Source: Beroe forskalii
Lineage: Eukaryota; Ctenophora; Nuda; Beroida; Beroidae
NCBI GenBank assembly: GCA_011033025.1
Contig: WFMF01000142.1
Location: 349,116-413,115 of the forward strand
Direction: 5' to 3'
DNA length: 64,000 nucleotides
The translations under genes were made by a program, and so were the position numbers. The notes beneath the pieces are model-generated. The model had not been told where the DNA came from, did not search any database, and saw only the letters and a program-made list of their open reading frames with translations. This document shows positions 31,212 to 53,389 of this stretch, piece after piece. Positions within the stretch are counted from its first letter, which is position 1. Each line of letters starts with the position of its first letter.

Positions 31212-31216
31212 TGACT

Positions 31217-32042
31217 ATAAAATCACTAATGATGATTTGAAGTCATTAGAATGCTGGGAAGCAACTTGGCTTTTGAAACTTAATATTGATAAATGTAAAG
31301 TGATGCATATAAGCATGAATAGTAACCCAAGAAATAAATATGTATTGGATGGTGTAGTATTACAGGAAACGTGTACTGAAAGGGACTTAGGTGTAATGGT
31401 AAAGAATGACCTACAATGGGATTGCAATATTAGTAAATGTATAAAAGATGCTAATAGATCAATAGCTTGGATTAGCAGAAATGTTATAGATAAAGACATT
31501 GATATAATGTTGCGAATTTATAAGGCAATTATTAGACCTAAACTAGAATACTGTGTTCAAATTTGGAGTCCACCGCTCACCATGGGAATTGGGGTACCAT
31601 CTTGGAGCTGGAAGGAGTCCAGCGTCGTTTCACTAGACTTATTAATGGCATAGGTACACTTCCTTACAGTGAGCGGTTGGACAGGCTAAAATTAACAACA
31701 TTAGCCGAAATTCATGAAAGGAGAATAAGAGGAGATCTCCTAGAAACATTTAAAGTTGTTAATAATAAGGTCCAGTATGGTCAGAACTTGTTTAAACTAG
31801 GAAGAAGTAGAAGAAATCTATTGATGAGAACAAACTCAGGTGTAAATTTGTCAAAAGATGCAGTTAGCAGATTGAATGATAATTTTATTTCAGTGAGAGT
31901 TAGATCTTATTGGAATAATCTGCCTAAATCTGTGAGAGAAGCTTCTGATGTTAACCACTTTGAAACTAGTTTGGAGTACTATAAAAGGAAACTGATACCC
32001 TTTGTCATGACAATTTCTGGCATATTTCTTCATTGGTATTAG
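31217..32042 (+). pseudogene. LINE ORF2 remnant, RT thumb and C-terminal region
   Basis: It resumes with DDLKSLECWEATWLLKLNID (post-catalytic region), then RPKLEYCVQIWSP. After a frameshift near 31575 come LEGVQRRFTRLI, LPYSERLDRLKL and ERRIRGDLLETFK. These are the conserved C-terminal motifs of CR1/Jockey-clade ORF2. The reading stops at 32041. Confidence 0.85.
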
Positions 32043-32534
32043 AAAAAATAGAAGGAGCAATTATTTGACAAATAAGGTGAAATTTAATGAGTATTTAAGA
32101 AGTAACCCATATGTAGCTAAAGAAAAGGAATAAATATTAGTTATTGATTGGAAAGCTTGTTATGTTGTTTTTACTTTTTATAGGTGCAATAATGTAATTC
32201 TTTAAGTTATTACTCAACTTAAATTATTTGATAATTCATAATTGACAGAAGTTACCTTTTATCACACTGTGTATGTATATTTTGGTTTTTGATGTTTTAT
32301 TTATTTTCATGGTTATCACAGGGTCTGCATGAGGTTTTTTTAATTCACTATCTCATAAAACTATCAACAGTTCTAGATTAATTCTGTTATTTGTTTTTTA
32401 AATGTTCTTGAAAATTGAATAAATGGACACCTGGGTTAAAAGGTGTGTTTTTTAGTGGAAGCTAATGTTTTGATATAATGAAAGGAAGCGTGATGGTTTA
32501 ATACCATAATCTATTCTATTTCTATTTCTATTAG
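32043..32534 (+). other. LINE 3' untranslated region and tail
   Basis: AT-rich sequence ending in CTATTCTATTTCTATTTCTATT, a short tandem tail as in CR1-like elements. Confidence 0.6.
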
Positions 32535-32607
32535 AAAAATTTTTTATAAAAAAATTTTTTATGAAAAATTTTTTATGTGAAAAAAAGTGAGCCTGCTCGG
32601 CCACCGT
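32535..32607. repeat. A/T-block repeat right of the LINE
   Basis: Three AAATTTTTT-type blocks followed by AAAAAAAGTGAGCCTGCTCGG match the repeat at 25441-25660. Confidence 0.65.
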
Positions 32608-32654
32608 AGTAGTTTGAGAAGTAGATTCATGAGTCTGTGGGTTTGAATGTAGCA

Positions 32655-32917
32655 GAGATCCTAGGTAGGTCTCCCATATAAACGGGAGCCTTCATTATCT
32701 ATGACAATGACGTCACTCAGAAAAATATAATTAAGCGCACCTAGCGCTTTAAGGACTAGGGTTAGGGTCAGGATTAGGGTCAAGATTTGTTAGGGTTAGG
32801 GTTAGGATTAAGGTTAGGGTTTCGGATAGGGTTATGGTTAGGTTTAGGATATAGAAAAATTGACGTTTAGATCTGTGACGTCACTCAGAGCCGTTTATAT
32901 GGGAGAGATCCTAGGGA
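32655..32917. mobile_element. Short foldback with degenerate TTAGGG core
   Basis: The arms share CTCCCATATAAACGG (32671-32685, inverted at 32891-32905) together with GATCCTAGG, and TGACGTCACTCAG is found inside both. The core 32754-32849 is a degenerate GGGTTAGGGTTAGG array. The TTAGGG form is the usual animal telomere unit. Here it is interstitial and lies inside an inverted-repeat element. Confidence 0.65.
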
Positions 32918-33180
32918 GAATAGGATCCCAGAGGGGACTGCACTTAGGGACACTGTCTGTTCTGTTGAGGGTAGGTTTCCTTGATGTTATGGCAGCCTGT
33001 TTGGTGAGGTCTAGGTGGGAGGCGGAGGGTTTTGGACATTTGTGAAAGTCCAATCAATACCAAAATTTGCAGGAATATAGGTTATGGTCAAACACTTTAA
33101 ATTGAAATGAAATCAATTGTCCAAGTGCTGGTCTGTACTGTTGTAATCTACTTAATTGTTGTAATCTAATTAATTGTTGT
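32918..33180. other. Non-coding stretch
   Basis: TTGTTGTAATCTAATTAA-type words repeat near 33130-33185. No gene is seen. Confidence 0.4.
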
Positions 33181-33342
33181 AATCTAAATCTTTTCTGTAT
33201 AATCACATACGTCACAATAGCAAAGTCCTGTACGGAGCCCCTCACTTTTGATTCCTTGTTAAACATGCTGTACAGCAAGGATCTACACTGAGTTCACCAT
33301 GGTTGGGCACTTAGACACCCATTTGTACTGTGACATAAGTTG
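33181..33342 (+). repeat. 162-bp dispersed direct repeat, copy 1
   Basis: AATCTAAATCTTTTCTGTAT through CTGTGACATAAGTTG, about 90% like the second copy 323 bp downstream. Confidence 0.88.
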
Positions 33343-33503
33343 CATTTTTACCCTCTGTATTTTGGAAATGTTTCCTTGAGGTTGACAATTGATGCTCACA
33401 CAGTACTATTTCATTTCCAATTTGATGTTATATAAGCTAGTCTTATGTGAGAGATGAGGCGGAAGAACCGACCATCAAGCACAGCTCACTGGACTATGGA
33501 ATC

Positions 33504-33665
33504 AATCTAAATCTTTTCTGTATAATCACATACGTCACAATAGCAATGTCCTGTACGGATCCCCTCAGCTTCGGTTCCTTGTTTAACACGCCATACAGCA
33601 AGGATCTACACTGAGTTCACCATGGTTGGGCACTTAGACACCCATTAGTACTGTGACATAAGTTG
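33504..33665 (+). repeat. 162-bp dispersed direct repeat, copy 2
   Basis: Same start and end words as copy 1. The main differences lie around CCCCTCAGCTTCGGTTCC. Confidence 0.88.
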
Positions 33666-34740
33666 TAACATTGAAATATAGTTTTATTGAAATTTGTTGA
33701 ACTTGGCCCATGAAACTTGGATTCAGCTGAAAATAAGTGGGCAAACAGACTCATGACTATGAGGCCTTTTGGGCTGAACAAAGAAACCCTGGTGGAGTTA
33801 TTGATTCCATCAGTTCTATATGTCGTCAATCGCCGGGTATAAGAACCCAGCGACACTGAATTTTTTTTGTTGGTTTGTCACATCCATGTACCATGTACCA
33901 TAGGTTCATTTCATAATGTTTTTCATATACATTTTCAAAGTTCAGTAGGTATCACATTTTTTGATGTTAGTTTTTTTTAGCATATTCCATTCAATTGTAT
34001 TAAAGCATTCAGTTCACATGGTTTTCACCTTCATTCATTGTGTGTTTCACATTTCAACTCTTAAATTTATGATCCAATTGATCAGGATGGCTAACATCCA
34101 AACGGAGATCCTGAAGATGGAATAATTTTCCAAAACTGTCAGTAGATCAGCGTGGTTGTGTGAAAGGGTTCGATTCATATTCATCCATTCATTTCATTAC
34201 AGAGTTTTACTGTTTCATTGTATTGTCTGTGATAAGGAAAAGACAAATTTTTTTTTTAAGGAAAAGACAAAATTTTATTTAACTCAAACAATTTTACAAA
34301 TATTCATATAAATATACCATGGAATTACTTTGTAGTTAATAAATTATAGTTATTGTAATATATTACTTCCTTGGATTTAAGATTATATACATCATGAAAT
34401 TTATGAAATAAGCTTCTATATAATATATCCACATTTCTTTTGAAATCAAAATACTTGGACATGTTCCGTTATGGCTAGTAGGGTTGGATATTGTGGGATC
34501 TTGGGGTGGAAAAATGCCAAAGAAGTTTCCAAAGATAAAACAATAGAATGTTAAAACAATAGAATGTTGATAACAAATTAGATTTATGATTGCATAATAA
34601 ATGATAAAGATGGGGGATCCTTTAATTGATATTTGTTGAACTTGATGACTTTTAGCATTGACTAAGTCCCTAAGCACCTGGGACCAGGAGGCCACTCAGT
34701 CTTGAAATAAGAACGTTGGGCCCCTGCTAACTGCAAGGTG
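33666..34740. other. AT-rich non-coding stretch
   Basis: A tandem AAGGAAAAGACAAA pair occurs near 34237-34272. No gene is recognised. Confidence 0.4.
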
Positions 34741-35319
34741 CTTGTGAACCAGGGGTTTCTCAGGGCTCACTGGTTGGCTCATGGCTGGTTAAGCTCAGCC
34801 TACTGTCATATGTGATTAACAAGGTGTTTTGCACTGAAAGAGTCAGCAGCTGGTCATGGGTTAGTCAAGGGTCACCAGTGAATCACATGTGATTCCCCAG
34901 TGTCAGGTAAGGGTCAGCAGGACTGAAAAGGGTAAGCAATGAGTTACCATGGGATCAAAAGGCTTGATTGGAAAGTCAGGTTAGTTGCACGTGGCTAATT
35001 TTTGAAGAATATCCTCCACTCTGGCTGCTGATTAGCCTCCATTCACCTCTACCCAGCCTCCACTCAGCTATTATGGTTGCTAAATCATGGTTTAGCCTCA
35101 ACTGATGAATTAACCTCCATTAGCCTCCAAATGTCATTGTTTTTGAGGCTAAAGCATCATTATAAGACTGAGTGATAGCAAAATCATTAAGCCTCCATAG
35201 AACAAAGTCTGTTGACATTGAAACTGTTGAGAACAAATGTGAACAAATGTGAACAAACTTGAAAAATCCATATATGTTTTCAAAATCTCAGCCAGACAAC
35301 CAAATCTCAATATCCTCCA
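34741..35319. other. Low-complexity non-coding stretch
   Basis: Irregular GGGTCAGCAG, GGTTAGTCA and AGCCTCCA words recur without a fixed period. It grades into the minisatellite at 35320. Confidence 0.45.
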
Positions 35320-35560
35320 ATCAGTCTCCATTGGCAACCACTCATCCTCTGTTAGCAACCACTTGGTCTCCATTAAAAACCATTCAGCCAACACACAGTC
35401 CCTATTTAGCCACCTCTCAGCCTGCATTAGCAACCACTCAGCCTCCATGAGCCACCACTCAGCCTCCATTAGCAACGACATAGCCTCCCAGCTTCCATTA
35501 GCAACCACTCAGTCTTAACTAACCACCACTCAGCCTTTATTAGCCACCACCCAATTGATA
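35320..35560 (+). repeat. 21-bp minisatellite CAGCCTCCATTAGCAACCACT
   Basis: About 11 imperfect copies. Translation gives a seven-residue ATTQPPL- or NHSASIS-like repeat, so open frames across it are not coding evidence. Confidence 0.85.
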
Positions 35561-37837
35561 GTAAGGGAAATTTTCAGGTTAGCTTTAGTATTGGGGTCAA
35601 AATAATGGTCTGAAGGTGAACATTTAGGGCCAGTATCAGTGATTATCTTTATTATGGGGAGTCCATTCTCTGCCCACTAACAATTAAACAAAATTTCAAT
35701 TAAACAAAATTTCAACATTTTACAACAGTACAGACCAGCATTATCACAATTGATTTAATTCCAATGCAAATTGAATTAAAATTATTAATAATTGTTGTAA
35801 ATAAATTTAAGTTTTTCAATCTTTAACTCTTTCAATTAACACATTGTCTGTTGCAGGATGTTTAACATTTAAAACTCTGTTTAATTTTAGCACTGAAACA
35901 CTTAGTGCTACTCTTAATAAGGAGTCAACAAAACCTTCAACGATCCGGATTGGGTGTGTAATATCAGATTTTGATACAATGTTAAGCTTCATAATAATCA
36001 AATTGCTATCCCACTGCTTATTGAAAGTCACTCTTTTGAATGTTACTTTAATGCTCAAGCATATATGGCATCCTCGTTTTAAACTTGCTCCCTAAACATC
36101 CTCATTCTGTTTATCTTTAAACTTTTAAATCTTGATAATGGAGAATGAGTCTCTTGATATCTAATATTTAAAAGATTCAGGTATCAATTTAACTTCTATA
36201 TTTCAGATGAAATGAGAAGAAAGTGAACAGCTTGGAAAGGATATCATACTATGGAGAACGAAAATCGTTAGTAAAGCAATGTTTTCTAATTTGATTTTCC
36301 ATGTTGTAGGTATTAGCAAATTTCTGTGTATGATCATGATTGCCTTTAATTTGTGACATATGGAAAGTTGACAGCCTGGGCCCTGGAGCCTAGCAAAATG
36401 AAACATTCGCCACGTTGTAGAGTTACTTATTCCATTTTCATAATATTAAGGATCTTAAAAGCTTGGCGATTTGACAGGTTGGAAACAAGGATTGTTTTAA
36501 ATCAAGGTATTCATTCCAAATCACTATGTATATTTCATCAAATATACATCCTTTGGCAAACATGCCCGACTAACGTCTGAAGATTATTTCAGGCTGGACC
36601 TTCTTGTCCTAACCAATTCAAAGCATTTAATCAAGTGTTTCTGATTGTCATGGCAACATACACGCAGTATTAGAATTAGGGTTTGCAAGTTTTGAAGCAC
36701 GCTCTCCAACCAAACAAAAATTATCAAAGTATTAATAACCACTGCGATACTATACCGGAAGTTTCATGGCTTGCATGAACTAAAGATCACTCGTGAAAAC
36801 CTTTTTCGTTTGCTCCCCGAACCTCCACAAACTTATGAGTATGCAGTACGTGAAAATTTTATTGGAGTTTTTTTCGTGATTTCTTCGTCATCTTTATTGC
36901 ACGAACTGTAAAGTGGAAGTTCCAAGTAGTTGGTGTTGCCGCAGGTTAGTTCAAAGTTAAGGGTCACGTTTTATTAAAAAAGCGGATATGCCCGTTTTGT
37001 CCAATTTTTCACATAAGTGGTCCAACGTTTCGTTCCTTTGTTCCAATCGTTCCTTTGCTTCAAAACCTTATAATACCTTCATGATTGATTTTCAAATTTT
37101 AAACCTGCTCATTTTATCATTGCGCTGTCTTAGGGTTCTTTCATTGATCATATGATTGTTTTCTTAGACATATCATTCCAATGTGACATCCAATGCCTCT
37201 TTCACTGCATACCGGGTAAAAGGAAACGAATACGAATAAAGATAAGAGGAGAGACAGAAAGTGAGCATCTCATCTCCTCTAACTATTGAAGACAAAGTTG
37301 TTATGTAACTTGTAGATCTACTATACCATTGCCTTTTCGTCCTATTTGAAAATTGGAAAAACGGACATGACCGTTTTGTCAGCTTTTTTGCTTTCCAAAA
37401 GCGGACAAAACGGATAAGTCCGTTTGTCAGATTTTTTCGTTTTATCCTAAAGAAGTAAAAATCAGTCCGGAAATTTATAAATGTGAAAACAGACACGGAC
37501 ACTATCCCTGACAAAACAGAATTTTTGATGTAGTTTTATCTACATACTACAGTACAGAAGTGCTGCAATATGATAGTGAAATGTACGGACTATCGGTACC
37601 AATGTTTGTGTTCATACCAAGTAGATGTAAAACGTGATCCTTGTAAATTATTCTATTGTAATTTTCTAGTCCCGGAATATTTAAGAAAATGGAATTTGTA
37701 ATTCGAAACCAGGTGAATGTTTGGCCTTGCTTTGGCCAAGGCTCTCGCCTCCAGGATTTCATCTTCGTGATATCCTTCCAAAAAAGGGGGAGGCTATCGG
37801 CTCGATCACCTTCCCCTGGTGTAATGAAACGTTAATA
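35561..37837. other. AT-rich non-coding stretch left of satellite block 2
   Basis: No gene is seen. Short palindromic words of the type GCGGATATGCCCGTTTTGTC occur near 36983, 37356 and 37390. The last host bases before the satellite are CGTTAATA. Confidence 0.45.
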
Positions 37838-37914
37838 GTCACTTCGTCATCGATCCTACGTGTCGTTGACACCACTTTTTAGAGTTACTGTCTCACATAC
37901 CGATGTGTCACTTC
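37838..37914 (+). repeat. Satellite spacer fragment opening block 2
   Basis: Starts GTCACTTCGTCATCGATCC and runs to GTGTCACTTCTCC. It is the 3' third of a spacer, cut exactly where the block's right end stops (CCGCTAC|GTCAC). Confidence 0.93.
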
Positions 37915-38375
37915 TCCGGAGGGCCCCATTCTCCGGAGGGTCCATTCTCCGGAGGGCCCCATTCTCCGGAGGGTCCATTCTCCGGAGGGCCCCATTCTCC
38001 GGAGGGCCCATTCTCCGGAGGCCCATTCTCCGGAGGGCCCATTCTCCGGAGGGCCCATTCTCCGGAGGGTCCATTCTCCGGAGGACCCATTCTCCGGAGG
38101 GCCCATTCTCCGGAGGGCCCCATTCTCCGAAGGGCCCCATTCTCCGGAGGGCCCATTCTCCGGAGGGCCCATTCTCCGGAGGCCCATTCTCCGGAGGGCC
38201 CATTCTCCGAGGGCCCATTCCTGAGGGCCATTCTCCGGAGGGCCCCATTCTCCGGAGGGTCCATTCTCCGGGGGGTCCATTCTCCGGAGGGCCCCATTAT
38301 CTGGAGGACCCATTCTCCGGAGGGCCCCATTCTCCGGAGGGCCCATTCTCCGGAGGGCCCATTCTGGAGGGCCCA

Positions 38376-38560
38376 TTCCCTGGAGGCCCCATTCTCCGAG
38401 GGCCCCATTCTCCGGAGGGCCCATTCTCCGGTGGGCCCCTTATTCTCTGGAGGGCCCATTCTCGAGGAGGCCCATTTTCTTTGAGGGCCCATTCTCCGGA
38501 GGACCCATTCTCACCAAACGGCCCATTCTCATTCGTTGTGAGCCACTTTCTCGGAGGGCC
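38376..38560. repeat. Scrambled satellite zone C
   Basis: Spacer words ACCAAACGG and GAGCCACTT (38510-38555) are embedded among monomers in the right order, with the intervening spacer missing. Confidence 0.65.
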
Positions 38561-39215
38561 CATTCTCCGAGGCCCCATTCTCCGGAGGGCCCATTCTCCG
38601 GAGGGCCATTCTCCGGAGGGCCCCATTCTCCGGAGGGTCCATTCTCCGGAGGACCCATTCTCCGGAGGACCCATTCTCCGGAGGGCCCATTCTCCGGAGG
38701 GCCCAATTCTCCGGAGGGCCCATTCTCCGGAGGGCCCCATTCTCCGGAGGCCCCATTCTCCGGAGGGCCCATTTTCCGGAGGGCCCATTCTCCGGAGGGC
38801 CCATTCTCCGGAGGGCCCCATTCTCCGGAGGGCCCATTCTCCGGAGGCCCATTCTCCGGAGGGCCCATTCTCCGGAGGCCCATTCTCCGGAGGGCCCATT
38901 CTCCGGAGGGCCCATTCTCGAGGCCCCATTCTCCGGAGGCCCATTCTCCGGAGGGCCCATTCTCCGGAGGGCCCATTCTCCGAAGGTCCATTCTCCGGAG
39001 GGCCCATTTCGGAGGGCCCATTCTCCGGAGGCCCATTCTCCGGAGGGCCCATTCGGAGGGCCCATTCTCGGAGGGCCCCATTCTCCGGAGGGCCCATTCT
39101 CCGGAGGGCCCATTCTCCGGAGGGCCCATTCTCCGAGGGCCCATTCTCCGGAGGGCCCATTCTCCGGAGGGCCCATTCGGAGGCCCATTCTCCGGAGGGC
39201 CCATTTCCGGAGGGC

Positions 39216-39426
39216 CCATTTACTTTTACACACTTTTCCGGAGGGCCCATTTTCCTTACTTTCTTCCTGTGACACCAAACGGAAGTGAGACTATTGCACT
39301 GTGCAGGGCCACTTATAAAGCACCATTTTACGTCAGGGCCCCATTTCCGCTACGTCACTTCGTCAGCGATCAGACGTGTCGTTGACACCACTTTTAGAAT
39401 TACTGTCTCACATACCGAGGCCACTT
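39216..39426 (+). repeat. Satellite spacer, block 2, mosaic copy
   Basis: Spacer interrupted by monomer pieces: TTTACTTTTACACACTTTT is followed by CCGGAGGGCCCATTTTCC and then by TTACTTTCTTCCTGTGACACC. GGCC or GGGCCCC is inserted within GCAGCCACTT and ACGTCAGCC. Confidence 0.85.
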
Positions 39427-40014
39427 CTCCGGAGGGCCCATTCTCCGGAGGGTCCATTCTCCGGAGGGCCCCATTCTCCGGAGGGCCCATTCTCCGGAGG
39501 GCCCATTCTCCGGAGGGCCCATTCTCGGAGGGCCCCATTCTCCGGAGGGCCCATTCTCTGGAGGGCCCATTCTCCGGAGGGCCCCATTCTCCGGAGGGCC
39601 CATTCTCCGGAGGGCCCATTCTCCGGAGGGCCCCATTCTCCGGAGGGCCCATTTTCCGGAGGGCCCCATTCTCCGGAGGGCCCATTCTCCGGAGGGCCCA
39701 TTCTCCGGAGGGCCCCATTCTCCGGAGGGCCCCATTCTCCGGAGGGCCCATTCTCCGGAGGGCCCATTCTCCGGAGGACCCATTCTCCGAGGCCCATTTG
39801 GAGGGCCCCATTCTCTCGGAAGGCCCCATTCTCCAGAGGGCCCATTCTCCGGAGGGCCCATTCTCCGGAGGGCCCATTCTCCGGAGGGCCCATTCTCCGG
39901 AGGGCCCATTCTCCGGAGGGCCCATTCTCGGAGGCCCCATTCTCCGGAGGGCCCCATTCTCCAAAGGGCCCATTCTCCAGAGGGCCCATTCTCCGGAGAG
40001 CCCATTCTCCGGAG

Positions 40015-40253
40015 GGTCCTTATTTACGGACCATTTACTTTTACACACTTTTTATTTTTTACTTACTTTTACTTACTTTCTTCCTGTGACACCAAACGGA
40101 AGTGAGACTATTGCACTGTGCAGCCACTTATAAAGGTTTCGTTGACACCACTTTACGTCAGCCTGCATTCCGCTACGTCACTTCGTCAGCAATCCTACGT
40201 GTCGTTGACACCACTTTTTAGAGTTACTGTCTCACATACCGATGTGTCACTTC
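40015..40253 (+). repeat. Satellite spacer, block 2
   Basis: Full-length copy carrying CAGCAATCC and AGAGTTACTG, a combination shared with the copy at 45445. Confidence 0.93.
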
Positions 40254-40662
40254 TCCGGAGGGCCCCATTCTCCGGAGGGTCCATTCTCCGGAGGGCCCAT
40301 TCTCCGGAGGGCCCATTCTCCGGAGGGCCCATTCTCCGGAGGGCCCATTCTCCGGAGGGCCCATTCTCTGGAGGGCCCCATTCTCCGGAGGGTCCATTCT
40401 CCGGAGGGCCCCATTCTCCGGAGGGTCCATTCTCGGGGTCCATTCTCCGAGGGCCCCATTCTCGGAGGACCCATTCTCGGAGGCCCATTCTCCGGGAGGG
40501 CCCATTCTCCGGAGGGCCCATTCTCCGGGGGCCCATTTCGAGGGCCCATTCTCCGGAGGGCCCATTCTCCGGAGGGCCCATTCTCCGGAGGGCCCATTCT
40601 CCGGAGGGCCCATTCTCCGGAGGGCCCATTCTCCAGAGGGCCCAATGGCCCATTCTCCAGAG

Positions 40663-40900
40663 GGTCCTTATTTACGGACCATTTACTTTTACACACTTTT
40701 TATTTTTTACTTACTTTTACTTACTTTCTTCCTGTGACACCAAACGGAAGTGAGACTATTGCACTGTGCAGCCACTTATAAAGGTTTCGTTGACACCACT
40801 TTACGTCAGCCTGCATTCCGCTACGTCACTTCGTCAGCGATCCTACGTGTCGTTGACACCACTTTTTAGAATTACTGTCTCACATACCGATGTGTCACTT
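40663..40900 (+). repeat. Satellite spacer, block 2
   Basis: Full-length copy with block 2 diagnostic bases (CCTGTGACACC, ACCGATG). Reads CAGCGATCC and AGAATTACTG. Confidence 0.93.
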
Positions 40901-41390
40901 CTCCGGAGGGCCCCATTCTCCGGAGGGTCCATTCTCGGAGGGCCCATTCTCCGGAGGCCCATTCTCCGGAGGCCCCATTCTCCGGAGGGCCCATTCTCCG
41001 GAGGGCCCATTCTCCGGAGGGCCCATTCTCCGGAGGGCCCATTCTCCGGAGGGCCCATTCTCGGAGGGCCCCATTTTCTGGAGGCCCCATTCTCCGGAGG
41101 CCCATTTTCAAAAGGCCCCATTCGGGAGGCCCCATTCTCCGGAGGGCCCATTCTCCGGAGGGCCCATTCTCCGGAGGGCCCATTCTCGGAGGGCCCATTC
41201 TCCGGAGGGCCCATTCTCCAGAGGGCCCATTCTCCGAAGGGTCCATATTCTGGAGGAGCCCATTCTCCGGAGGGCCCATTCTCAGGAGGGCCCATTCTCC
41301 GGAGGGCCCATTCTCCGGAGGGCCCCATTCTCCGGAGGGCCCATTCTCCGGAGGGCCCCATTCTCCGGAGGGCCCATTCTCCGGAGGGCC

Positions 41391-41625
41391 CATTATTTAC
41401 GGACCATTTACTTTTACACACTTTTTATTTTTTACTTACTTTTACTTACTTTCTTCCTGTGACACCAAACGGAAGTGAGACTATTGCACTGTGCAGCCAC
41501 TTATAAAGGTTTCGTTGACACCACTTTACGTCAGCCTGCATTCCGCTACGTCACTTCGTCAGCGATCCTACGTGTCGTTGACACCACTTTTTAGAATTAC
41601 TGTCTCACATACCGATGTGTCACTT
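41391..41625 (+). repeat. Satellite spacer, block 2
   Basis: The 5' hairpin is damaged (CCCATTATTTACGGACC); the rest is consensus. Confidence 0.93.
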
Positions 41626-42208
41626 CTCCGGAGGGCCCCATTCTCCGGAGGCCCATTCTCGGAGGTCCATTCTCCGGAGGGCCCCATTCTCCGGAGGGCC
41701 CATTCTCCGGAGGGCCCATTCTCCGGAGGGCCCATTCTCCGGAGGGCCCCATTCTCCGGAGGGCCCATTCTCCGGAGGGCCCATTCTCCGGAGGGCCCAT
41801 TCTCCGGAGGGCCCATTCTCCGGAGGGCCCATTCTCCGGAGGGCCCATTCTCCGGAGGCCCATTCTCCGGAGGGCCCATTCTCCGGAGGGCCATTCTCCG
41901 GAGGGCCCATTCTCCGGAGGGCCCCATTCTCCGGAGGGCCCATTCTCCGGAGGCCCATTCTCCGGAGGGCCCATTCTCCGGGGCCCATTCTCCGGAGGGC
42001 CCCATTCTCCGGAGGACCCATTCTCGGAGGGCCCCATTCTCCGGAGGGCCCATTCTCCGGAGGGCCCATTCTCCGGAGGGCCCATTTTCCGGAGGGTCCA
42101 TTCTCCGGGGGGCCCAATTCTCCGGGGGGCCCAATTCTCCGGAGGGCCCATTCTCCGGAGGGCCCATTCTCCGGAGGGCCCATTCTCCAGAGGGCCCATT
42201 CTCCGGAG

Positions 42209-42445
42209 GGTCCTTATTTACGGACCATTTACTTTTACACACTTTTTATTTTTTACTTACTTTTACTTACTTTCTTCCTGTGACACCAAACGGAAGTGAG
42301 ACTATTGCACTGTGCAGCCACTTATAAAGGTTTCGTTGACACCACTTTACGTCAGCCTGCATTCCGCTACGTCACTTCGTCAGCGATCCTACGTGTCGTT
42401 GACACCACTTTTAGAATTACTGTCTCACATACCGATGTGTCACTT
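42209..42445 (+). repeat. Satellite spacer, block 2
   Basis: Full-length copy with a shortened CACTTTTAGAATT and a TCTCTCCGG exit into the array. Confidence 0.93.
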
Positions 42446-43178
42446 CTCTCCGGAGGCCCCATTCTCAGGAGGTCCATTCTCCCAGGAGGCCCATTCTCCG
42501 GAGGGCCCATTCTCCGGAGGGCCCATTCTCCGGAGGGCCCATTCTCCGGAGGGCCCATTCTCCGGAGGGCCCATTCTCCGGAGGGCCCCATTCTCCGGAG
42601 GGCCCATTCTCCGGAGGGCCCATTCTCCGAGGGCCCATTCTCCGGAGGGCCCATTCTCCGGAGGGCCCATTCTCCGGAGGGCCCATTCTCCGGAGGGCCC
42701 ATTCTCGGGGCCCATTCTCGGAGGGCCCATTCTCCGGAGGGCCCATTCTCGAGCCCATTCTCCGGAGGCCCCATTCTCCGTAGGGCCCCATTCTCCGGAG
42801 GGCCCATTCTCCGAGGGCCCCATTCTCTGGAGGGCCCCATTCTCTGGAGGGCCCCATTCTCCGTGGGGCCCCATTCTCCGGAGGGCCCATTCTCCGGAGG
42901 GCCCCATTCTCCTGAGGGCCCAATTCTCCGGAGGGCCCCATTCTCCGGAGGGCCCAATTCTCTGGAGGGCACATTTTCCTGAGGGCCCCTTTCTCCGGAG
43001 GGCCCATTTTTCAAAGGGCCCCATTCTCCGGAGGGCCCATTCTCCGGAGGGCCCATTCTCCGGAGGGCCCATTCTCCGGAGGGCCCATTCTCCGGAGGGC
43101 CCATTCTCCGGAGGCCCCATTCTCCGGAGGGCCCCATTCTCCGGAGGGCCCATTCTCCAGAGGGCCCATTCTCCGGAG

Positions 43179-43416
43179 GGTCCTTATTTACGGACCATTT
43201 ACTTTTACACACTTTTTATTTTTTACTTACTTTTACTTACTTTCTTCCTGTGACACCAAACGGAAGTGAGACTATTGCACTGTGCAGCCACTTATAAAGG
43301 TTTCGTTGACACCACTTTACGTCAGCCTGCATTCCGCTACGTCACTTCGTCAGCGATCCTACGTGTCGTTGACACCACTTTTTAGAATTACTGTCTCACA
43401 TACCGATGTGTCACTT
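43179..43416 (+). repeat. Satellite spacer, block 2
   Basis: Full-length consensus copy of the block 2 type. Confidence 0.93.
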
Positions 43417-44074
43417 CTCCGGAGGGCCCCATTCTCCGGAGGGCCCATTCTCCGGAGGGCCCATTCTCCGGAGGGCCCATTTTCCTGAGAGCCACTTTCT
43501 CCGGAGGGCCCATTTTCCAAAGGGCCCCATTCTCCGGAGGGCCCATTCTCCGGAGGGCCCATTCTCCGGAGGGCCCATTCTCCGGAGGGCCCATTCTCCG
43601 GAGGGCCCACTCTCCAGGCCCATTCTCCGGAGGCCCCCTCTCGGGCATTCTCCGGAGGGCCCCATTCTCCGGAGGGCCCATTCTCCGGGAGGCCCCATTC
43701 TCCGGGGGTCCATTCTCCTGAGGCCCATTCTCCGGAGGGCCCATTCTCCGGAGGGCCCATTCTCCGGAGGGCCCATTCTCCGGAGGCCCATTCTCCGGAG
43801 GGCCCCATTCTCCGGAGGGCCCATTCTCCGGAGGCCCATTCTCCGGAGGGCCCATTCTCCGGAGGTCCATTCTCCGGAGGGCCCCATTCTCCGGAGGGCC
43901 CATTCTCCGGAGGGCCCCATTCTCCGGAGGGCCCATTCTCCGGAGGGCCCATTCTCCGGAGGGCCCATTCTCCGGAGGGCCTATTCTCCGGAGGGCCCAT
44001 TCTCCGGAGGGCCCATTCTCCGGAGGGGCCCATTCTCTGGAGGGCCCATTCTCCAGAGGGCCCATTCTCCGGAG

Positions 44075-44309
44075 GGTCCTTATTTACGGACCATTTACTT
44101 TTACACACTTTTTTTTTACTTACTTTTACTTACTTTCTTCCTGTGACACCAAACGGAAGTGAGACTATTGCACTGTGCAGCCACTTATAAAGGTTTCGTT
44201 GACACCACTTTACGTCAGCCTGCATTCCGCTACGTCACTTCGTCAGCGATCCTACGTGTCGTTGACACCACTTTTTAGAATTACTGTCTCACATACCGAT
44301 GTGTCACTT
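44075..44309 (+). repeat. Satellite spacer, block 2
   Basis: Full-length copy with a compressed T tract (CACTTTTTTTTTACTTAC). Confidence 0.93.
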
Positions 44310-44889
44310 CTCCGGAGGGCCCCATTCTCCGGAGGGTCCATTCTCCGGAGGGCCCATTCTCCGGAGGGTCCATTCTCCGGAGGGCCCCATTCTCCGGAGG
44401 GCCCATTCTCCGGAGGCCCATTCTCCGGAGGGCCCATTCTCCGGAGGGTCCATTCTCCGGAGGGCCCCATTCTCCGGAGGGCCCCATTCTCTGGAGGGCC
44501 CATTCTCCGGAGGCCCCATTCTCGGAGGCCCCATTCTCCGGAGGGCCCATTCTCCGAGGCCCATTCTCCGGAGGCCCATTCTCCGGAGGCCCCATTCTCC
44601 GGAGGGCCCATTCTCCGGAGGGCCCATTCTCCGGAGGGCCCATTCTCCGGAGGGCCCCATTCTCCGGAGGGCCCATTCTCGGAGGGCCCATTCTCCGGAG
44701 GCCCATTCTCCGGAGGGCCCATTCTCCGGAGGGCCCATTCTCGAGGCCCATTCTCCGGAGGCCCATTCTCCGGAGGGCCCCATTCTCCGGAGGGCCCATT
44801 CTCCGGAGGGCCCATTCTCCGGAGGGCCCCATTCTCCGGAGGGCCCATTCTCCGGAGGGCCCATTCTCCAGAGGGCCCATTCTCCGGAG

Positions 44890-45128
44890 GGTCCTTATTT
44901 ACGGACCATTTACTTTTACACACTTTTTATTTTTTTACTTACTTTTACTTACTTTCTTCCTGTGACACCAAACGGAAGTGAGACTATTGCACTGTGCAGC
45001 CACTTATAAAGGTTTCGTTGACACCACTTTACGTCAGCCTGCATTCCGCTACGTCACTTCGTCAGCGATCCTACGTGTCGTTGACACCACTTTTTAGAAT
45101 TAATGTCTCACATACCGATGTGTCACTT
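44890..45128 (+). repeat. Satellite spacer, block 2
   Basis: Full-length copy with AATTAATGTCTCAC in place of AATTACTGTCTCAC. Confidence 0.93.
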
Positions 45129-45444
45129 CTCCGGAGGGCCCATTCTCCGGAGGGCCCCATTCTCCGGAGGGCCCATTCTCCGGAGGGCCCCATTCTCCGG
45201 AGGGCCCATTCTCCGGAGGGCCCATTCTCCGGAGGGCCCATTCTCCGGAGGGCCCATTCTCCGGAGGGCCCATTCTCCGGAGGGCCCCATTCTCCGGAGG
45301 GCCCCATTCTCGGAGGGCCCATTCTCCGGAGGGCCCATTCTCCGGAGGGCCCATTCTCCGGAGGGCCCATTCTCCGGAGGGCCCATTCTCCGGAGGGCCC
45401 CATTCTCCGGAGGGCCCATTCTCCGGAGGGCCCATTCTCCGGAG

Positions 45445-45683
45445 GGTCCTTATTTACGGACCATTTACTTTTACACACTTTTTATTTTTTACTTACTTTT
45501 ACTTACTTTCTTCCTGTGACACCAAACGGAAGTGAGACTATTGCACTGTGCAGCCACTTATAAAGGTTTCGTTGACACGACTTTACGTCAGCCTGCATTC
45601 CGCTACGTCACTTCGTCAGCAATCCTACGTGTCGTTGACACCACTTTTTAGAGTTACTGTCTCACATACCGATGTGTCACTTC
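45445..45683 (+). repeat. Satellite spacer, block 2
   Basis: Full-length copy with GACACGACTTTACG, CAGCAATCC and AGAGTTACTG. The last two are shared with the copy at 40015, which suggests a duplication or conversion between them. Confidence 0.93.
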
Positions 45684-46417
45684 TCCGGAGGGCCCCATTC
45701 TCCGGAGGGTCCATTCTCCGGAGGGCCCCATTCTCCGGAGGGTCCATTCTCCGGAGGGTCCATTCTCCGGAGGGCCCATTCTCCGGAGGGCCCATTCTCC
45801 GGAGGGCCCATTCTCCGGAGGGTCCATTCTCCGGAGGGCCCCATTCTCCGGAGGGCCCATTCTCCGGAGGGCCCATTCTCCGAGGGCTCCATTCTCCGGA
45901 GGGTCCATTCTCCGGAGGGCCCATTCTCCGGAGGGCCCCATTCTCCGGAGGGCCCATTCTCCGGAGGGCCCATTCTCCGGAGGGCCCATTCTCCGGAGGG
46001 TCCATTCTCCGGAGGGCCCCATTCTCCGGAGGCCCATTCTCCGGAGGGCCCATTCTCCGGAGGGCCCATTCTCCGGAGGGCCCCATTCTCCGGAGGGCCC
46101 ATTCTCCGGAGGGCCCATTCTCCAGAGGGCCCATTCTCCGGAGGGCCCCATTCTCCGGAGGGCCCATTCTCCGGAGGGCCCCATTCTCCGGAGGGCCCAT
46201 TCTCCGGAGGGCCCATTCTCCGGAGGGCCCCATTCTCCGGAGGGCCCATTCTCCGAGGGCCCCATTCTCCGGAGGGCCCATTCTCGGGGCCCATTCTCCG
46301 GAGGGCCCATTCTCCGGAGGGCCCCATTCTCCGGAGGGCCCATTCTCCGGAGGGCCCATTCTCCGGAGGGCCCATTCTCCGGAGGGCCCGATTCTCCGGA
46401 GGGCCCATTCTCCGGAG

Positions 46418-46655
46418 GGTCCTTATTTACGGACCATTTACTTTTACACACTTTTTATTTTTTACTTACTTTTACTTACTTTCTTCCTGTGACACCAAAC
46501 GGAAGTGAGACTATTGCACTGTGCAGCCACTTATAAAGGTTTCGTTGACACCACTTTACGTCAGCCTGCATTCCAATACGTCACTTCGTCAGCGATCCTA
46601 CGTGTCGTTGACACCACATTTTAGAATTACTGTCTCACATACCGATGTGTCACTT
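46418..46655 (+). repeat. Satellite spacer, block 2
   Basis: Full-length copy with CATTCCAATACGTCAC and CACCACATTTTAG substitutions. Confidence 0.93.
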
Positions 46656-46955
46656 CTCCGGAGGGCCCCATTCTCCGGAGGGTCCATTCTCCGGAGGGCC
46701 CCATTCTCCGGAGGGCCCATTCTCCGGAGGGCCCATTCTCCGGAGGGTCCATTCTCCGGAGGGCCCCATTCTCCGGAGGGCCCATTCTCCGGAGGGTCCA
46801 TTCTCCGGAGGACCCATTCTCCGGAGGGCCCATTCTCCGGAGGGCCCCATTCTCCGGAGGGCCCATTCTCCGGAGGGCCCCATTCTCCGGAGGGCCCATT
46901 CTCCGGAGGGCCCATTCTCCGGAGGCCCATTCTCCGGAGGGCCCATTCTCCGGAG

Positions 46956-47117
46956 GGTCCTTATTTACGGACCATTTACTTTTACACACTTTTTATTTTT
47001 TTACTTACTTTTACTTACTTTCTTCCTGTGACACCAAACGGAAGTGAGACTATTGCACTGTGCAGCCACTTATAAAGGTTTCGTTGACACCACTTTACGT
47101 CAGCCTGCATTCCGCTA
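46956..47117 (+). repeat. Satellite spacer fragment closing block 2
   Basis: Begins with the normal hairpin and stops at GCATTCCGCTAC, followed at once by unique TATAAGAACAATGG. Its end is the complement in unit phase of the fragment at 37838. Confidence 0.93.
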
Positions 47118-47613
47118 CTATAAGAACAATGGAGACTCATGCTTTACATTCACTCTGAGAACGCATTCATACCTACAACATGATTCTGTGGGCAACATGC
47201 CAGCAGCTACCTTACGTTGCATAATCACGGTGTTAAAATCATAATGTAAGAGCGTGTGTATGTGTGTCGGTGGGTGTAGTTATATATAACTGTACATTCA
47301 ACATGTACATAAGATGCATATATTCACTAGTATATGCGATATCAATTAAATATAATACCTCTATACTTACATGGAACGCGCAGCCAAGATAACGTTGTAC
47401 AAACCTCATCTTTTTAGTTGAATTTTAACGCGTCCTACGCGCGTGCGCCGCACTTCATTCTTGAAATTTTGAGGCATCGCGATGACAAGATCCTCACGTA
47501 AAAGTTACGATGAATGCGGAAAAAGCTTTTGGTTTATGAATAATATGCTTCGGAGGAAATATGGGCTGTGATAATGTGTTATGACGAACTGGCTAGAGAA
47601 TTACTACGTTTTA
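47118..47613. other. Unique non-coding stretch right of block 2
   Basis: Includes a short TGTGTATGTGTGTCGG run and TATATATAACTG. No gene is seen. Confidence 0.4.
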
Positions 47614-47614
47614 G

Positions 47615-47980
47615 GGCAGTCTGGAGGAACACCGACTTACCTTAAGCGGACCCAAAGCGGAATCACTTTAGCAGAATGGGATCGTTCACATATTACGTAA
47701 TCAATTTTTGGCCGATTTCAACCTCCCCCTCCCCCTCGTAATCAAGTTTACAGTAGTTGTATTTGTTGCAATAACATGTAACGTAATCATTCGGAAACCC
47801 CCTCCCCCCTCTAGGTGATTACGTAATATGTGAACGATCCCAATCTATAATCAGTGAAGGATAAGGCGGTGAGGCGAAGTTTAGGGTTAGTGTTAGAGTT
47901 TTGGTTAGAGCTGGAGGTAGAGTTATTGTTAGGTTATGGGCGAGTCCGCCTAAGTGAAGTCGGCGTTCCTCCAGACAGCC
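47615..47980. mobile_element. MITE carrying a nested MITE
   Basis: The outer inverted repeats start GGCAGTCTGGAGGAACACCG (47615) and end with CGGCGTTCCTCCAGACAGCC (47980), continuing inward to GCGGAC/GTCCGC. Between the nested element and the right arm, 47879-47937 is TTAGGGTTAG-like. No ORF is present. Confidence 0.82.
47678..47841. mobile_element. Nested 164-bp MITE
   Basis: Perfect inverted repeats of about 25 bp (GGGATCGTTCACATATTACG ... and complement). AAT lies on both sides (47675-47677 and 47842-47844), a 3-bp target duplication compatible with PIF/Harbinger-type elements. The middle has CCCCCTCCCCCTCG and CCCCTCCCCCCTC tracts. Confidence 0.88.
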
Positions 47981-49911
47981 TGGTTTCGCTATTTTTCTCT
48001 GCAAGTGTGGTGTCATAGGCTTGAGAAAAGTTTATCTTGTGTTACAGATATTCTCATTCTTATCAATTCATCGGCATGTTTAAGAAGAATTGTTTTTAGA
48101 ATGCAATGCTTTCAAGCGAAAGCTTTTCCGTACTTTGAACTCTTCAATCAAGAAATATTGAATTCGAACAAAGAGTGGCTTTAATTCGCTGTTTCAATGG
48201 GTAATTTGATTATATACTTGAATGCAGTCAAATTCAAATTACGGAATGTTAAAGGCTTAAACCACAGAAGTTTCGAAAATTTGAGTTATATTCTTTTGAA
48301 AATCACATACTTTTGCAAGATGTTACTGTGCTTTTTTTAAAGCTCGACTTTTTTTTCTATATCATCCAGTTCATGCAACGGATTTTAAATAAAATGTACT
48401 TTCCCGCAATCCGAATTATCCTTTTCCCGAGTCAGGGTTTTTTCAGTCCAACGGAGTGGCTGATGAGGAATCTTATTATCGGGTTTTTATATTTCTCATG
48501 GGATACAAGGTGATTGCCTGGTGGCCGGCTGAGATTTATTTAGTTTAAAAGCTTTCAACATGATAATATTGGATTGACAGGGGTGCACTCTAATTTAGTG
48601 GACATACTAATCTAGTGGACATATTAGGGACATATTAGCTTCCAGCCAAGCTGATCCTTGATTCTAAAATCCATTAACACCCATGTGTGTAATCCGTACA
48701 CCCACATGTGTAATCTGTATACGTGATAATCTGTAGCACCCCCGAAATAATGATGATTAGCACGGTAGTCCCATTTAATACATTGAGCACAATTTAATAC
48801 ATAATAAAAGCAGACTGATTCTGGACTTTGGGACCCCCCTTAATAATTCACAACCTCATGCACATAAAATCTCATACACAATTCCCATACAATCGTGAAT
48901 CGCACGAGGAGCAGGCCGAGTGCGACAATACCAAATTATTGCACGAGGCGAAGCCGAGCGCAATAATTTGCCATGACCATTTGCCATGCTTTAAGTGTAT
49001 TAGCCAATGTGAGTGCAATGCAATATTATTCACCGTTTGAAAGCGTGTTCATCGTACTGTCGTGTCTTTGTACGATGAATCGGTGGTTTCGACAGCAGTG
49101 GAATAGGCGAAGTTCCATCTTTTGATTTCTTCCAGGTTGAGAATACTCTCCATCGGCTTGGCGACATCATTCGCCTTTTCAAACCCTGACAATGAGCCTC
49201 CGCCAGTTCATTTCCACATCTATTTTAATGGGGTGCCTCTAGCGTTTTGTGAGAGGGGATTATCCTATATAAGATGAATATAATATCACCTCTAGACCGT
49301 TCAATCGTCTCATGAATATTTAGATTAAACGCTGCGCAGCAGCATTTATAATCCAAGGCACAGAAGGTATCTGGAGCGCCAATATGCTCGGTATTGAAGC
49401 ACAATGTTCATAGAATTACGCTGTGAATTCATGGAGGTAGAGTTAATTCATGAAATTAAGTGCAATGACACAGCGTGCGTGTGCATGTATGTGTATAACT
49501 GAGTCGTATGTGACATGTAATTCCATATTATTATACAGTCCACTTCTCCAACCTAGTTGATGCACTTTGACGGTGCTTCAGTTAGCATAATATAGAACCA
49601 AAAACGAATGAACAATGGATATACCACAACCATGTCTGTACTGGCAGGATTGAGAAATCAACTTCGGAAATTGCCCACCTCTTGTTTACCACAAGTGTGT
49701 TATGAGTTATTAAGATTATACTTTTTTCTTTTTGACCAAACTCGCATTGAATCTCCGTATTTACTATTCATATTATACCCTCTTGGAAGTGCTGAATACA
49801 GTGTATATAATAAAGCATTGCTGCCGTATACCTAAGAATTTAGCTGATGCTATGTTGCAGGTGTTGCTGGCACTTTGCCAAATATAATGTAACATCTCAC
49901 TATTGTTTCAG
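47981..49911. other. Low-copy non-coding stretch
   Basis: Palindromic CGAGGCGAAGCCGAGCGC lies near 48949 and GAGGAGCAGGCCGAG near 48905. A 75-codon open frame at 49608-49835 has no recognisable motif and is not called as a gene. Confidence 0.4.
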
Positions 49912-49950
49912 GGAACTTTGCATCGGCAGAAAGCACTACTAATTCGGGTG
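49912..49950 (+). CDS. Candidate 39-nt internal exon of an unknown gene
   Basis: TATTGTTTCAG precedes it and GTAAGTTTGT follows, both strong splice signals. With two leading bases and one trailing base it reads NFASAESTTNSG, open, and its phase fits the next candidate exon at 50053. The function is not recognised. The evidence is splice-signal and phase consistency only, and no start or stop is known. Confidence 0.35.
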
Positions 49951-50052
49951 GTAAGTTTGTCATTACAGTTCCTTAATAAGTCGAATACCCCCGTAGCCCA
50001 AAGTGTGATACACTTTTATTCCCAAGAAATACCAACTTATATCATGTTTTAG

Positions 50053-50192
50053 ACGACAGTTTATTGGAATTATTTGGATATTGTAGCTCCCCCCTAAATA
50101 CGGGGAGCCTAAATGACTCGGAATCTTTGTATGCAATTTCCAAATCCAAACACCTTCCATTTCAGGAGAATCAGCTACATCCCCGCAGCCAA
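50053..50192 (+). CDS. Candidate 140-nt exon of the same unknown gene
   Basis: It is preceded by ATCATGTTTTAG and followed by GTGAGT. The 102-nt intron before it has GT...AG ends. Joined in phase, it is open for 46 codons, beginning DSLLELFGYCSSPLNTG and ending HPRSQ. The peptide is Ser/Leu-rich and soluble-looking, with no known domain. No further exon can be placed with confidence downstream. Confidence 0.4.
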
Positions 50193-53100
50193 GTGAGTGT
50201 TTCAAGTATTAGCGATTTACAAACAGATATTGCAGGGACTTGTTGAACTCCTTCGAGCGCGGCGTAATCGTGCGCGGCTCACTGCCTGTAATATAAACAG
50301 CCAGTGAGTCGCGCACGAACAAGCCGCGCACGTCACCGTTATTACAGCATATACCACTATACAGTATACACTCAAGTATCACTGATTGTGTATACATTGA
50401 GTGTAGTACTATGTACTTTGAATACAATCTGTAGACTGTGTGTATCAATATACTGTCAAGTGTGTGTATTGTGTAAGTAACATGTTGCATGCAGTCAGTG
50501 CAGCGTGGACTGTGAATCTATCTCATTTACCCTCCATCACAGTATAATTAGAGACTTGGAGGTCCCCCCGACGACTCTCACTATTTACATCTCAAAGACT
50601 GGGACTGTGAGCTCCACAACAGCTGCTCTTGGAATGTCAGGAGGCATTGTTTGAAACAAATTGTTTGATCTGACCAGATGAAACGTCAGCTCTGACCACG
50701 CCCTGTTTTGTTTCATTATGTTTCACAGCGCCCCTTATACCTGACCACTGTTTTGTTCCAGTTTTCTAGCTACAGTCTACACATAATATATATTTCTGGC
50801 TACATATATATTATATTTCTTACACTGGGACTGAGTTTTGGCAAAACTTCAGCAACGCAGCTGAATATAATAACATTGTCACCACACCGACAAATCTCTT
50901 TCATTATCTTTCATTATATAGGGCAGAGCTCCTTGCTCTGACGTCATTGGCAGGCAGGCTCAGAGAAACTTCAATTCTAAGGACAATACCCCAGGCACTT
51001 TGTTTTAATGAGCTGTTTCGGGATTGTAGCAGGTTGGTGATGGAACCAGATAGAAACCATTAACCACTTCCTCAGAAACATTACAAGTTTTTGGAAGAAG
51101 CTCATTCTCCGGCTTCCATTCATTGGAGCCGTACAACTTTCACATTTTTAGTTCGGAATTTAATTACGTCAAATTTCAAATAGTTGAGAAAATGATCAGT
51201 TAGGCTCTAATGCCATGGCGCAATGTTCAAAAAGAGTTTATTAGATTTAAACTTTGAAACATTTCATCGATTAAACAATTAAATCGTAGGTAAATAATAA
51301 GAGAATAAGCTTGATTTAGATTTTCCAGTGATGAATTTTACCTGATTTGATGAACATATTCCCCTCCACCAGCTATACCTGACCTCATGGTAATCGGCTA
51401 ATATTTCATGTGATGTAATGGACGTATTATGTTTAGGGGTGATTCAGGCAATTGTCGCTCGTGTAATCGACCAAATTTATCATCAGAGGAGCATTTAAAG
51501 CAGTCCTGATCACGTCACTACCATTTTGATCAGTGCTTAGACATCACTACCTCCCAACTGATATTATTCGTGGTTTATGCGCTCAAAGTAAATAGGTGGT
51601 CGCAATGCCGTCATTTACTATGCGCACGCTGCCAAATTGTTGAAAATAACCGCCTATTCTGTGCGCTGGATATAGGACACAGGTTGTCGGGTACTGGCGC
51701 GTATCCCACAAAAGGCATTAGAAATTAGAATGGGGTATTATGGTGATGTAATGACGGTTGATTGACTGTGATAAGAATGTGCTCAACAGTGATAAAAATG
51801 TAGAATGTTCTTATACCGCGGTTATTTCTACAATTTTCGCTTTGATAATGATCATAAACGATAGCACTTCCAGCGCGACCCATGATATATTCGGCATTAT
51901 TATTAATCAATGAAATGCTCAAATCTCATATAAATTCGAATAACTCATGAAACCATGTATCTCTCTCTCTCTATTCCAATGCACGTTCCTTTCATTAAAC
52001 ATGACCATAATAATATCTTGTAGGCGTATAATTCGTCTGAACTATAAATACGTCTGGACACCGATTAGAATTTATTTGTGGGGATAAGGGTAGAGCTTTA
52101 TTATGAACATGTAGTAAAATAATCTAATATATAGCTTCAAGAGACTATCGAACCCAGGAATCTCAGTCACATGGTTTACGGTACGTAACAGTAACGCGTT
52201 GTATTGTTGTAAAAAATAATTTAATATAGGAAATGGTCATGGCGGAGTATATTGTGTGTGTTTGGTTTTGAACGATTCTCGGGTTATGTAACTCTTCCGT
52301 CTTCTGATATAGCAAAGTTGGTTAATGGTTACTCAATGAATTGAAGTTTCCTGGCCTTATGTCTGCACTGTGCGAGTTGAACTTAACTCCAGATCCCTTC
52401 AATAACAGAGGCCAAAGTCACGTGACCCTTTATAAGCTGAAACGAGACCGTATGCTCTCAGCTACTCTGATTGAATGAACTTTTGCGTCCCAATTCATTT
52501 CTGAGGGCCCTATTGCTTTACAATGGCATTAACGTCATTACAATGGTATTAAATATGTGAATTGTTTTCCTCCTTTCCTCCTCGCATTTTTCCTCAATTA
52601 TACCCTGTTAGATAATGCAAATGAGATCCCCCAACGGTACGTACGACGGACCTCCTCAGTTTCCGAATATCTAAATAAGAGCATATTTTGTTCCAAACTG
52701 AGACCTGTATTCATTAATATCCTGACTGCCAAGGAAGTGTTCATTTTTCCTGAAACGTTTCTAAAGAACTCAAATGTGTTCAGAACTGGAATCCCCTTCG
52801 ATTTTTCGATTTATTTATTGGGATTCCTCATTCTCAGAACTATTAAGTTTTAATTGAGCGATGGGATGCTCAAAAAGGAATAATAACGCGGTGATTTTCT
52901 AAGAATTTCTAAGTAATATGCAATACTCTGAATTCCAGCAGCAGGATTTTACGTTATGAAAGATAAACTCCTAAAACTCTTAAAGCGTTTATCACGGTAC
53001 GTGCTAGGATAAAATAGCATACATATTGTTCATGATTTTAGCACCATCTTCCTCAGATTTAACTTTTTCTCAGATTTTATGATTCCAGCTGCGTTTTATA

Positions 53101-53389
53101 AAATGTATATATCTAAGAGGCACTCCTATCCTCCCTCTCACTCTCGTAGATTTGGCAGATATCCATGTATATGACCCTCACTATATTTCCGGGGATGGTT
53201 GCTCAATGGTTGTTTCAAAGTAAGAACATTTTACAGGATATCTCTCAACATTCATGATTACTTGTGTCTAATGTGTATGTGTTATCGCTTTTGTTGCTCG
53301 TCTTATCAGCTCTTGCAGTTTTAAACGTCGTTGAATTGCAACGCATACTGTGTAAAACATTTATACAGTGACCCCAAAACATAGTACAT
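50193..53389. other. Low-copy non-coding or intronic stretch
   Basis: 50269-50317 is a hairpin (CGTGCGCGGCTCACTG with CAGTGAGTCGCGCACG). TCACGTGACC lies near 52420. A 98-codon frame at 52557-52853 and others have no motif or splice support. Confidence 0.4.

Follow-up and report, generated by a model that had tools for sequence, protein, structure and literature searches.

Satellite sequences can lie dispersed in short blocks, and mobile elements can carry tandem repeats. The TCAST satellite of Tribolium castaneum forms dispersed euchromatic blocks, for which rolling-circle replication and reintegration are proposed as one route (PMC3411249). Helitrons are recognized by a 5' TC, a 3' CTRR and insertion between A and T, while Helentrons carry subterminal inverted repeats and a 3' palindrome (PMC4067079). 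Here we describe a tandem satellite array, termed block 2, in a 64-kb stretch of DNA of Beroe forskalii. This stretch, called the window and analyzed at its full length, forms the terminal part of contig C184. Both edges of block 2 fall at the same base of the repeated unit. With a probability of roughly 0.6 we read block 2 as an ordinary dispersed-satellite block whose founding edges are still intact.

Matched edges of block 2

Block 2 extends from position 37838 to 47118 of the window (+ strand). In the satellite unit, which measures roughly 0.4 to 1.6 kb, n copies of a 16-bp core close to CATTCTCCGGAGGGCC lie between a left part of 72 bp and a right part of ~161 bp. A 16-bp direct repeat, TCGTTGACACCACTTT, is present in both the right and the left part. 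Eleven left and 11 right parts were counted, giving 11 assembled head-to-tail units in 9281 bp with a mean of 844 bp. The first array base is 37838, where the left end starts with GTCACTTCGTCA, and the last is 47118, where the right end finishes with CATTCCGCTAC. A sequence-only reading made earlier had given the same start and an end one base short (47117). The left junction reads AAACGTTAATA outside and GTCACTTCGTCATCG inside, which can also be written GTTAATA/GTCACTTCGTCA, the slash marking the edge. The right junction reads CTGCATTCCGCTAC inside and TATAAGAACAATGG outside, or CATTCCGCTAC/TATAAGAAC. Across the block the left flank CGTTAATA faces, on the right, TATAA followed by GAACAATGG.

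Inside the array the two edge sequences abut as CCGCTAC/GTCAC, with no gap and no overlap. Nine of the 10 internal joints are the exact string CCGCTACGTCAC, a constant head-to-tail junction, and the tenth, before 46580, is CCAATAC/GTCAC. Neither edge can be slid, since on both sides the first base beyond the block is not the one that the array has at that phase. The abutting edges and the 11 units confirm the earlier proposal that the block begins and ends at the same spacer position and holds a whole number of units. A simple estimate puts the chance that two random breakpoints share phase to the base at ~1 in 840.

Alignment of the junctions to the block-2 spacer consensus, which the sequence-only reading had recommended, bore out the match. 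The left part of unit 1 (37838 to 37909, + strand) has 2 substitutions, 1 of them private, and the right part of the last unit (46957 to 47118, + strand) has none over its last 150 bp. Eight of the 11 right parts are likewise free of substitutions over this length. No decay is seen in the edge units, whose uniformity equals that of the interior. Judged by their sequences, the units of block 2 appear largely homogenized within the block, as exchange and conversion inside the block would give.

The unit count is not secure, because the interior of unit 1 looks like consensus errors. Its 1.3-kb core contains intermixed spacer fragments at 38503 to 38546 (+ strand), and its right part (39213 to 39353, + strand) mixes spacer with core and has 20 substitutions relative to the consensus. 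Both irregular stretches are probably assembly consensus errors, and the true unit number may differ from 11. The positions of both edges are independent of this count. Other garbled stretches of mixed spacer and core lie at window positions 3269 to 4301 and at C1032:20068-26450 and look like consensus errors in arrays.

Block 1 (window positions 1 to 13272, + strand) consists of the same satellite in the same orientation. It runs left beyond the window (C184:338854-362387), and on the right it ends within the core, next to an inverted-repeat element. The conserved spacer (window positions 43180 to 43412 and similar) carries a TATA-like TATAAAG at spacer positions 114-120 and TCAGCC ~30 bp downstream. 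Together these motifs presumably resemble a core promoter oriented across the joint toward the following unit.

The second haplotype and the edges of other blocks

For the right flank (47119 to 48500) one other copy was found among the best 40 of 2021 candidates. It is carried by the 11.5-kb contig C113 and is 94 and 97% identical over two stretches. On C113 an array lies in the same place as block 2, stops at the same CTAC, continues with ATTCC where the window has TATAA, and then enters the homologous flank. Thus, the right junction is the same and the last right part identical on both contigs, despite 13 differences in 560 flank bases, 4 of them among the first 5; this supports intact edges. 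C113 reaches near its contig end still within the array, and the left edge is outside its span. On sequence grounds C113 is most simply the second haplotype of the block-2 locus, although it is possible that it is a recent duplicate. Taken as a haplotype, it confirms the right junction and does not represent an independent event. A 164-bp interspersed element with inverted repeats at ~47678-47841 of the window is absent from C113 and is a polymorphic insertion; dozens of copies exist, mostly 93-98% identical among the rows listed (best 40 of 2021 candidates). A second left flank (36500 to 37837) was not found among the best 40 of 219 candidates, apart from a dispersed ~52-bp repeat.

TA adjoins both edges of block 2 on the window haplotype, as had been noted before, and this does not extend to the right edge on C113. 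Two random dinucleotides from the non-array parts of the window agree with a chance of 0.07 and are both TA with a chance of 0.006. Because of this chance agreement and the missing TA on C113, the flanking TA is weak evidence. An empty allele, also suggested as a check, was sought with an exact pattern joining the two flanks with 0-30 free bases between them, which gave 0 matches in the whole assembly. The only other right flank found, that of C113, carries the array. Nesting of block 2 inside a larger element was considered and rejected, since no paired flanking repeats lie near the edges: no 10-mer, direct or inverted, is common to both sides within 400 bp of the edges. A comparison of 30001-37837 with 47119-54000 gave one 14-base inverted match only (E 0.55).

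The edges of block 2 were searched for in the whole 216-Mb assembly of 1134 contigs by patterns. The right-end patterns required that the right end is not followed by G, with one pattern per class of last base, and the left-end patterns that the left end is not preceded by C. They accept only listed variants and no indels, and decayed ends could be missed. The right-end patterns matched at four places, namely the block-2 edge, C113 and the internal joints C184:319351 and C235:13371. The left-end patterns matched at two, the block-2 edge and the internal joint C184:344340. Apart from C113, these searches revealed no other block with the edges of block 2, and no solo interspersed copy with the same exact ends among the listed variants.

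Exact copies of TGCATTCCGCTAC number 68 genome-wide, and in 64 of these GTC follows. Of the other four, one is the block-2 edge, one lies on C113, one is an internal joint on C235 with one changed base, and one is a match on C398. Hence, the statement that both ends are adjacent in every intact spacer holds nearly, though not strictly: of 93 near-complete spacers from the fetched loci, 47 agree exactly with the most frequent 30-base sequence at the joint. The match at C398:123973-123985 covers 13 bases of the satellite right end without a mismatch. It lies in unrelated single-copy sequence, with TTGACACC just before it and ATTATATT after it. It is too short to count as a solo end and is either a chance match or a right-end remnant.

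Mapping of blocks in the fetched loci gave 39 rows with 78 edge slots, 9 of which were judged by coordinates to be cut by contig or locus ends. The rows C625 and C625b are one block. Runs had to reach 60 bp and consist of array words to more than 60%, which removed most of the garbled C1032 stretch, and some places, such as C1032:12831-13284, were left out. Three of the 78 slots lie at the unit joint: both ends of block 2 and C113. All other mapped edges fall within the 16-bp core, elsewhere in the spacer or next to inserted elements, except for one without an assigned position. Some array edges are formed by inserted elements, for example C184:325352-330237 with identical 46-bp direct terminal repeats, and some arrays elsewhere run into contig ends.

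Two further edges are close to the joint, at distances of 4 and ~10 bases. The near-solo unit C184:335975-336379 stops 4 bases before the joint on the right and lacks 20 bases at its left end. At C184:334534 the array oversteps the joint, its edge falling ~10 bases inside the right part, where it meets GGTAAG; arrays at C238 border on this sequence as well. Five rows other than block 2 have neither edge in the core, and none of them has matched ends. These are C580 (~L21 to L65), C201 (~R8-R18 to R52), the near-solo unit at C184:335975 (L21 to R157) and the rows C587:111372 and C1032:5788, which are of mixed orientation. In 11 uncut rows both edges lie in the core, where phase is not comparable. 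If circle insertion occurred at block 2, it is not the visible rule, the 11 core-edged rows being outside this test.

Six array edges fall at right-part positions 45-46 (C238:134111, C238:135119, C184:338854, C587:111372, C1032:9462 and C1032:17850), in the T-rich stretch before ACTTACTTTTAC. This suggests a favored insertion site for other elements in the spacer. Short repeats with the spacer motif TTGACACCACT were observed at C349:161093-161172 and C420:54117-54438, ~0.6 and 2.5 kb from satellite blocks.

Founding of block 2

From the exact matched edges at this locus only, the right junction on two haplotypes and the homogeneity up to the edges, all observed directly, we infer the following course. 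The block would have been set up between its flanks as a whole number of units, whether a local segment was duplicated in tandem or a ready-made head-to-tail multimer was inserted. When in-register exchange changed the copy number afterwards, the two outer edges would have been preserved; in many other blocks, inserted elements and breaks would have removed the original edges. The argument follows from array geometry. When a segment X between flanks A and B is duplicated, A-X-B becomes A-X-X-B, and matched ends result by construction. In-register unequal exchange then adds or removes whole units and leaves the outer edges untouched, until trimming or insertions destroy the match. Matched ends are the starting state of an array that arose in place, and therefore they show intact founding edges and not the founding route. 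The sequence-only reading was right that such ends are improbable for chance breakpoints; its step from there to a circle or a mobile unit is only partly supported and overlooks founding in place, the simplest cause.

The variation around the joint was analyzed in the 93 near-complete spacers. Among 145 six-base windows over spacer positions 71-220, CCGCTA, just left of the joint, varies most, both in counts (41; mean 12.0) and in the kinds of change (15 versus 6.9; CpG transitions excluded). The overlapping CGCTAC is second by counts and first by kinds, and the 90 less degenerate spacers gave the same order. This was a post hoc test confined to positions 71-220 (the T-rich positions before 71 are more variable), which includes the spacers of block 2 itself and counts gaps; eight spacers share one change (CTTC), most of them from one block. 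Such a peak is as expected of a real boundary, either an old junction or a defined end, and not of a random circle opening.

In a tree of the 93 spacers the units group largely, not strictly, by block. The group of block 2 also contains units of C113, C749, C580, C235, C238, C1032 and C625. With midpoint rooting and no outgroup, the block-2 units stand among those of other blocks and are not basal. Core-length classes are common to block 2, block 1 and C235, and one 740-bp core of block 2 has an identity of 0.955 to a block-1 core and 0.954 to a C235 core, compared to 0.942 to its counterpart in the same block. Over all 165 pairs of similar-length cores, identity is 0.908 within and 0.888 between blocks. 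The core-length orders 617-308-742 and 585-321-740 in blocks 1 and 2 are suggestive; by a rough estimate such a likeness is expected in about one of three comparisons, and it was not used. The shared unit types together with the undecayed edges favor arrival as a preformed multimer, and we lean slightly to this route over birth in place. Altogether, the evidence on the founding of block 2 is mixed and points both ways.

Several observations weigh against the reading as an ordinary block that kept its founding edges. For the left junction there is a single instance, and the interior contains likely consensus errors, so that a misjoin inside the array is possible. Neither an empty nor a pre-duplication allele was found in the assembly. 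The peak of variability just left of the joint is unlike the prediction for a randomly opened inserted multimer, and the near-solo unit ending 4 bases from the joint hints that the joint may be an end elsewhere. Furthermore, the 740-bp core is a selected example: similar-length cores of block 2 have a mutual identity of 0.939 (5 pairs) versus 0.923 to block 1 (16 pairs). Compared to C235 the value is 0.943 (2 pairs), so they are not closer to each other than to C235.

A circular extrachromosomal multimer of the satellite, opened at one point and integrated by end joining, is a possible source of the block, though we would not count on it. It predicts the matched phase at two edges without overlap, which birth in place predicts equally, and it is consistent with TA on both sides in the window haplotype, with unit types shared with block 1 and with undecayed edges. 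Against such an integration, which the sequence-only reading had put forward, stand the five unmatched rows (the 11 core-edged uncut rows being beyond judgement), the missing empty allele and the absence of TA beside the array on C113. The opening point would moreover coincide with an unusually variable position, unlike a random cut. A circle is compatible with the data, without being needed to explain them or specifically supported. Birth in place, with block 2 as the founder locus of the whole satellite family, formed by local tandem duplication, and all other blocks derived from it, is nearly as likely as the circle. In its favor, no block but block 2 was found to have matched edges at the unit joint, and the joint, where the conserved spacer varies most, could be the old junction of formerly separate sequences. 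However, the edges of a founder should be oldest, and the edge units are as homogeneous as the interior, which needs conversion up to the last base; the unit types shared with other blocks and the position of the block-2 units in the midpoint-rooted tree likewise speak against it.

A non-autonomous mobile element with fixed ends, Helitron- or Helentron-like or a DNA transposon with TA target, that became tandemized is very improbable. Defined ends, TA on both sides and two unique ends around a tandem-repeat core, as in HINE and DINE-1 (PMC4067079, PMC7492417), would fit it, and so would the near-solo unit with its right end 4 bases from the joint, though its left end is incomplete. In the pattern searches, however, no other edge lies at the joint, and the other blocks end at many positions, which is what the sequence-only reading had itself named as speaking against a tandemized mobile unit; its proposed search for blocks sharing this edge position returned the block-2 locus and C113 only. 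There is no terminal inverted repeat, the longest inverted word common to the end parts being 7 bases. The end parts fold not clearly better than shuffled sequences (z = -1.02 and -0.87; 33 and 32 of 200 shuffles equal). A Helitron or Helentron was rejected for want of matching ends (GTCAC...CTAC between flanking A and T, and not TC...CTRR), long inverted repeats and significant hairpins. The TA-target transposon was rejected for its lack of a terminal inverted repeat and for the ATTCC at the C113 right edge, TA standing on both sides of the window haplotype only. Misassembly, in which a contig was joined wrongly inside the array and the edges stem from different loci, is improbable. The mixed-read appearance of unit 1 and the arrays running to contig ends would agree with it. 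Yet the right junction is confirmed on C113, and for two unrelated loci to end at one and the same base, fixed ends would be needed, which the pattern searches revealed in no other block. Similarly improbable is a replicon that forms circles and seals them imprecisely at a defined joint (GCATTC-CGCTAC/GTCAC), its multimers opening and inserting specifically at this joint and beside TA. Such a replicon would explain the exact edges, the lack of overlap, the variation peak and the near-solo unit 4 bases short; given the lack of other exact edges, the other blocks would have to have been disrupted later.

We thus regard block 2 as a clean but ordinary case of a satellite block that has probably kept both founding edges. 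The locus is useful for the question of how satellite blocks are founded, because no second copy of its left flank was seen and its right edge is present on a second haplotype. It shows that matched array ends alone cannot count as evidence for circle insertion. If it is true that the joint is a specific opening point, the mobility of the satellite becomes directly testable.

Other features of the window and comparison with known systems

Rfam and tRNA scans of the 64-kb window gave no matches, and a search of viral contigs for a spacer word gave 0 matches. At ~27-29 kb the window contains fragments of a reverse transcriptase and, below the cut-off, of an endonuclease, belonging to a non-LTR (non-long-terminal-repeat) element. 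Minisatellites of CATAACCCACCCCAATCAACT and TACCCCTATGAACTCTTAACA, followed by their reverse complements, occupy positions 18226 to 21292 and form a large inverted repeat centered near 20418. Interstitial TTAGGG-like telomere repeats lie at 32752 to 32848, ~31 kb from the contig end.

In the literature consulted we found nothing on exactly matched ends of satellite blocks, and we make no claim of priority. The satellite resembles TCAST in that short head-to-tail arrays of one satellite are scattered over the genome (PMC3411249). The first block type described there comprises partial monomers or tandem monomers up to tetramers, whereas block 2 has 11 assembled units and exactly matched ends, and no other block found here has its edges. 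The unit is similar to the HINE elements, such as Cg_HINE of Crassostrea gigas (PMC7492417) and DINE-1 (PMC4067079), in having unique left and right parts and a variable tandem-repeat core. HINE and Helentron elements are described as interspersed, with subterminal inverted repeats, a 3' palindrome and T-rich insertion (PMC4067079). The satellite units, in contrast, are arranged head-to-tail, and neither a solo copy with exact ends nor a long inverted repeat or a significant hairpin was found. Block 2 is also like satellite arrays that evolve by exchange and conversion (PMC5615363), with which it shares homogenization within the block and variable repeat number. In the account of those arrays, repeats toward the array ends tend to be less homogenized, whereas the edge units of block 2 are as uniform as its interior.

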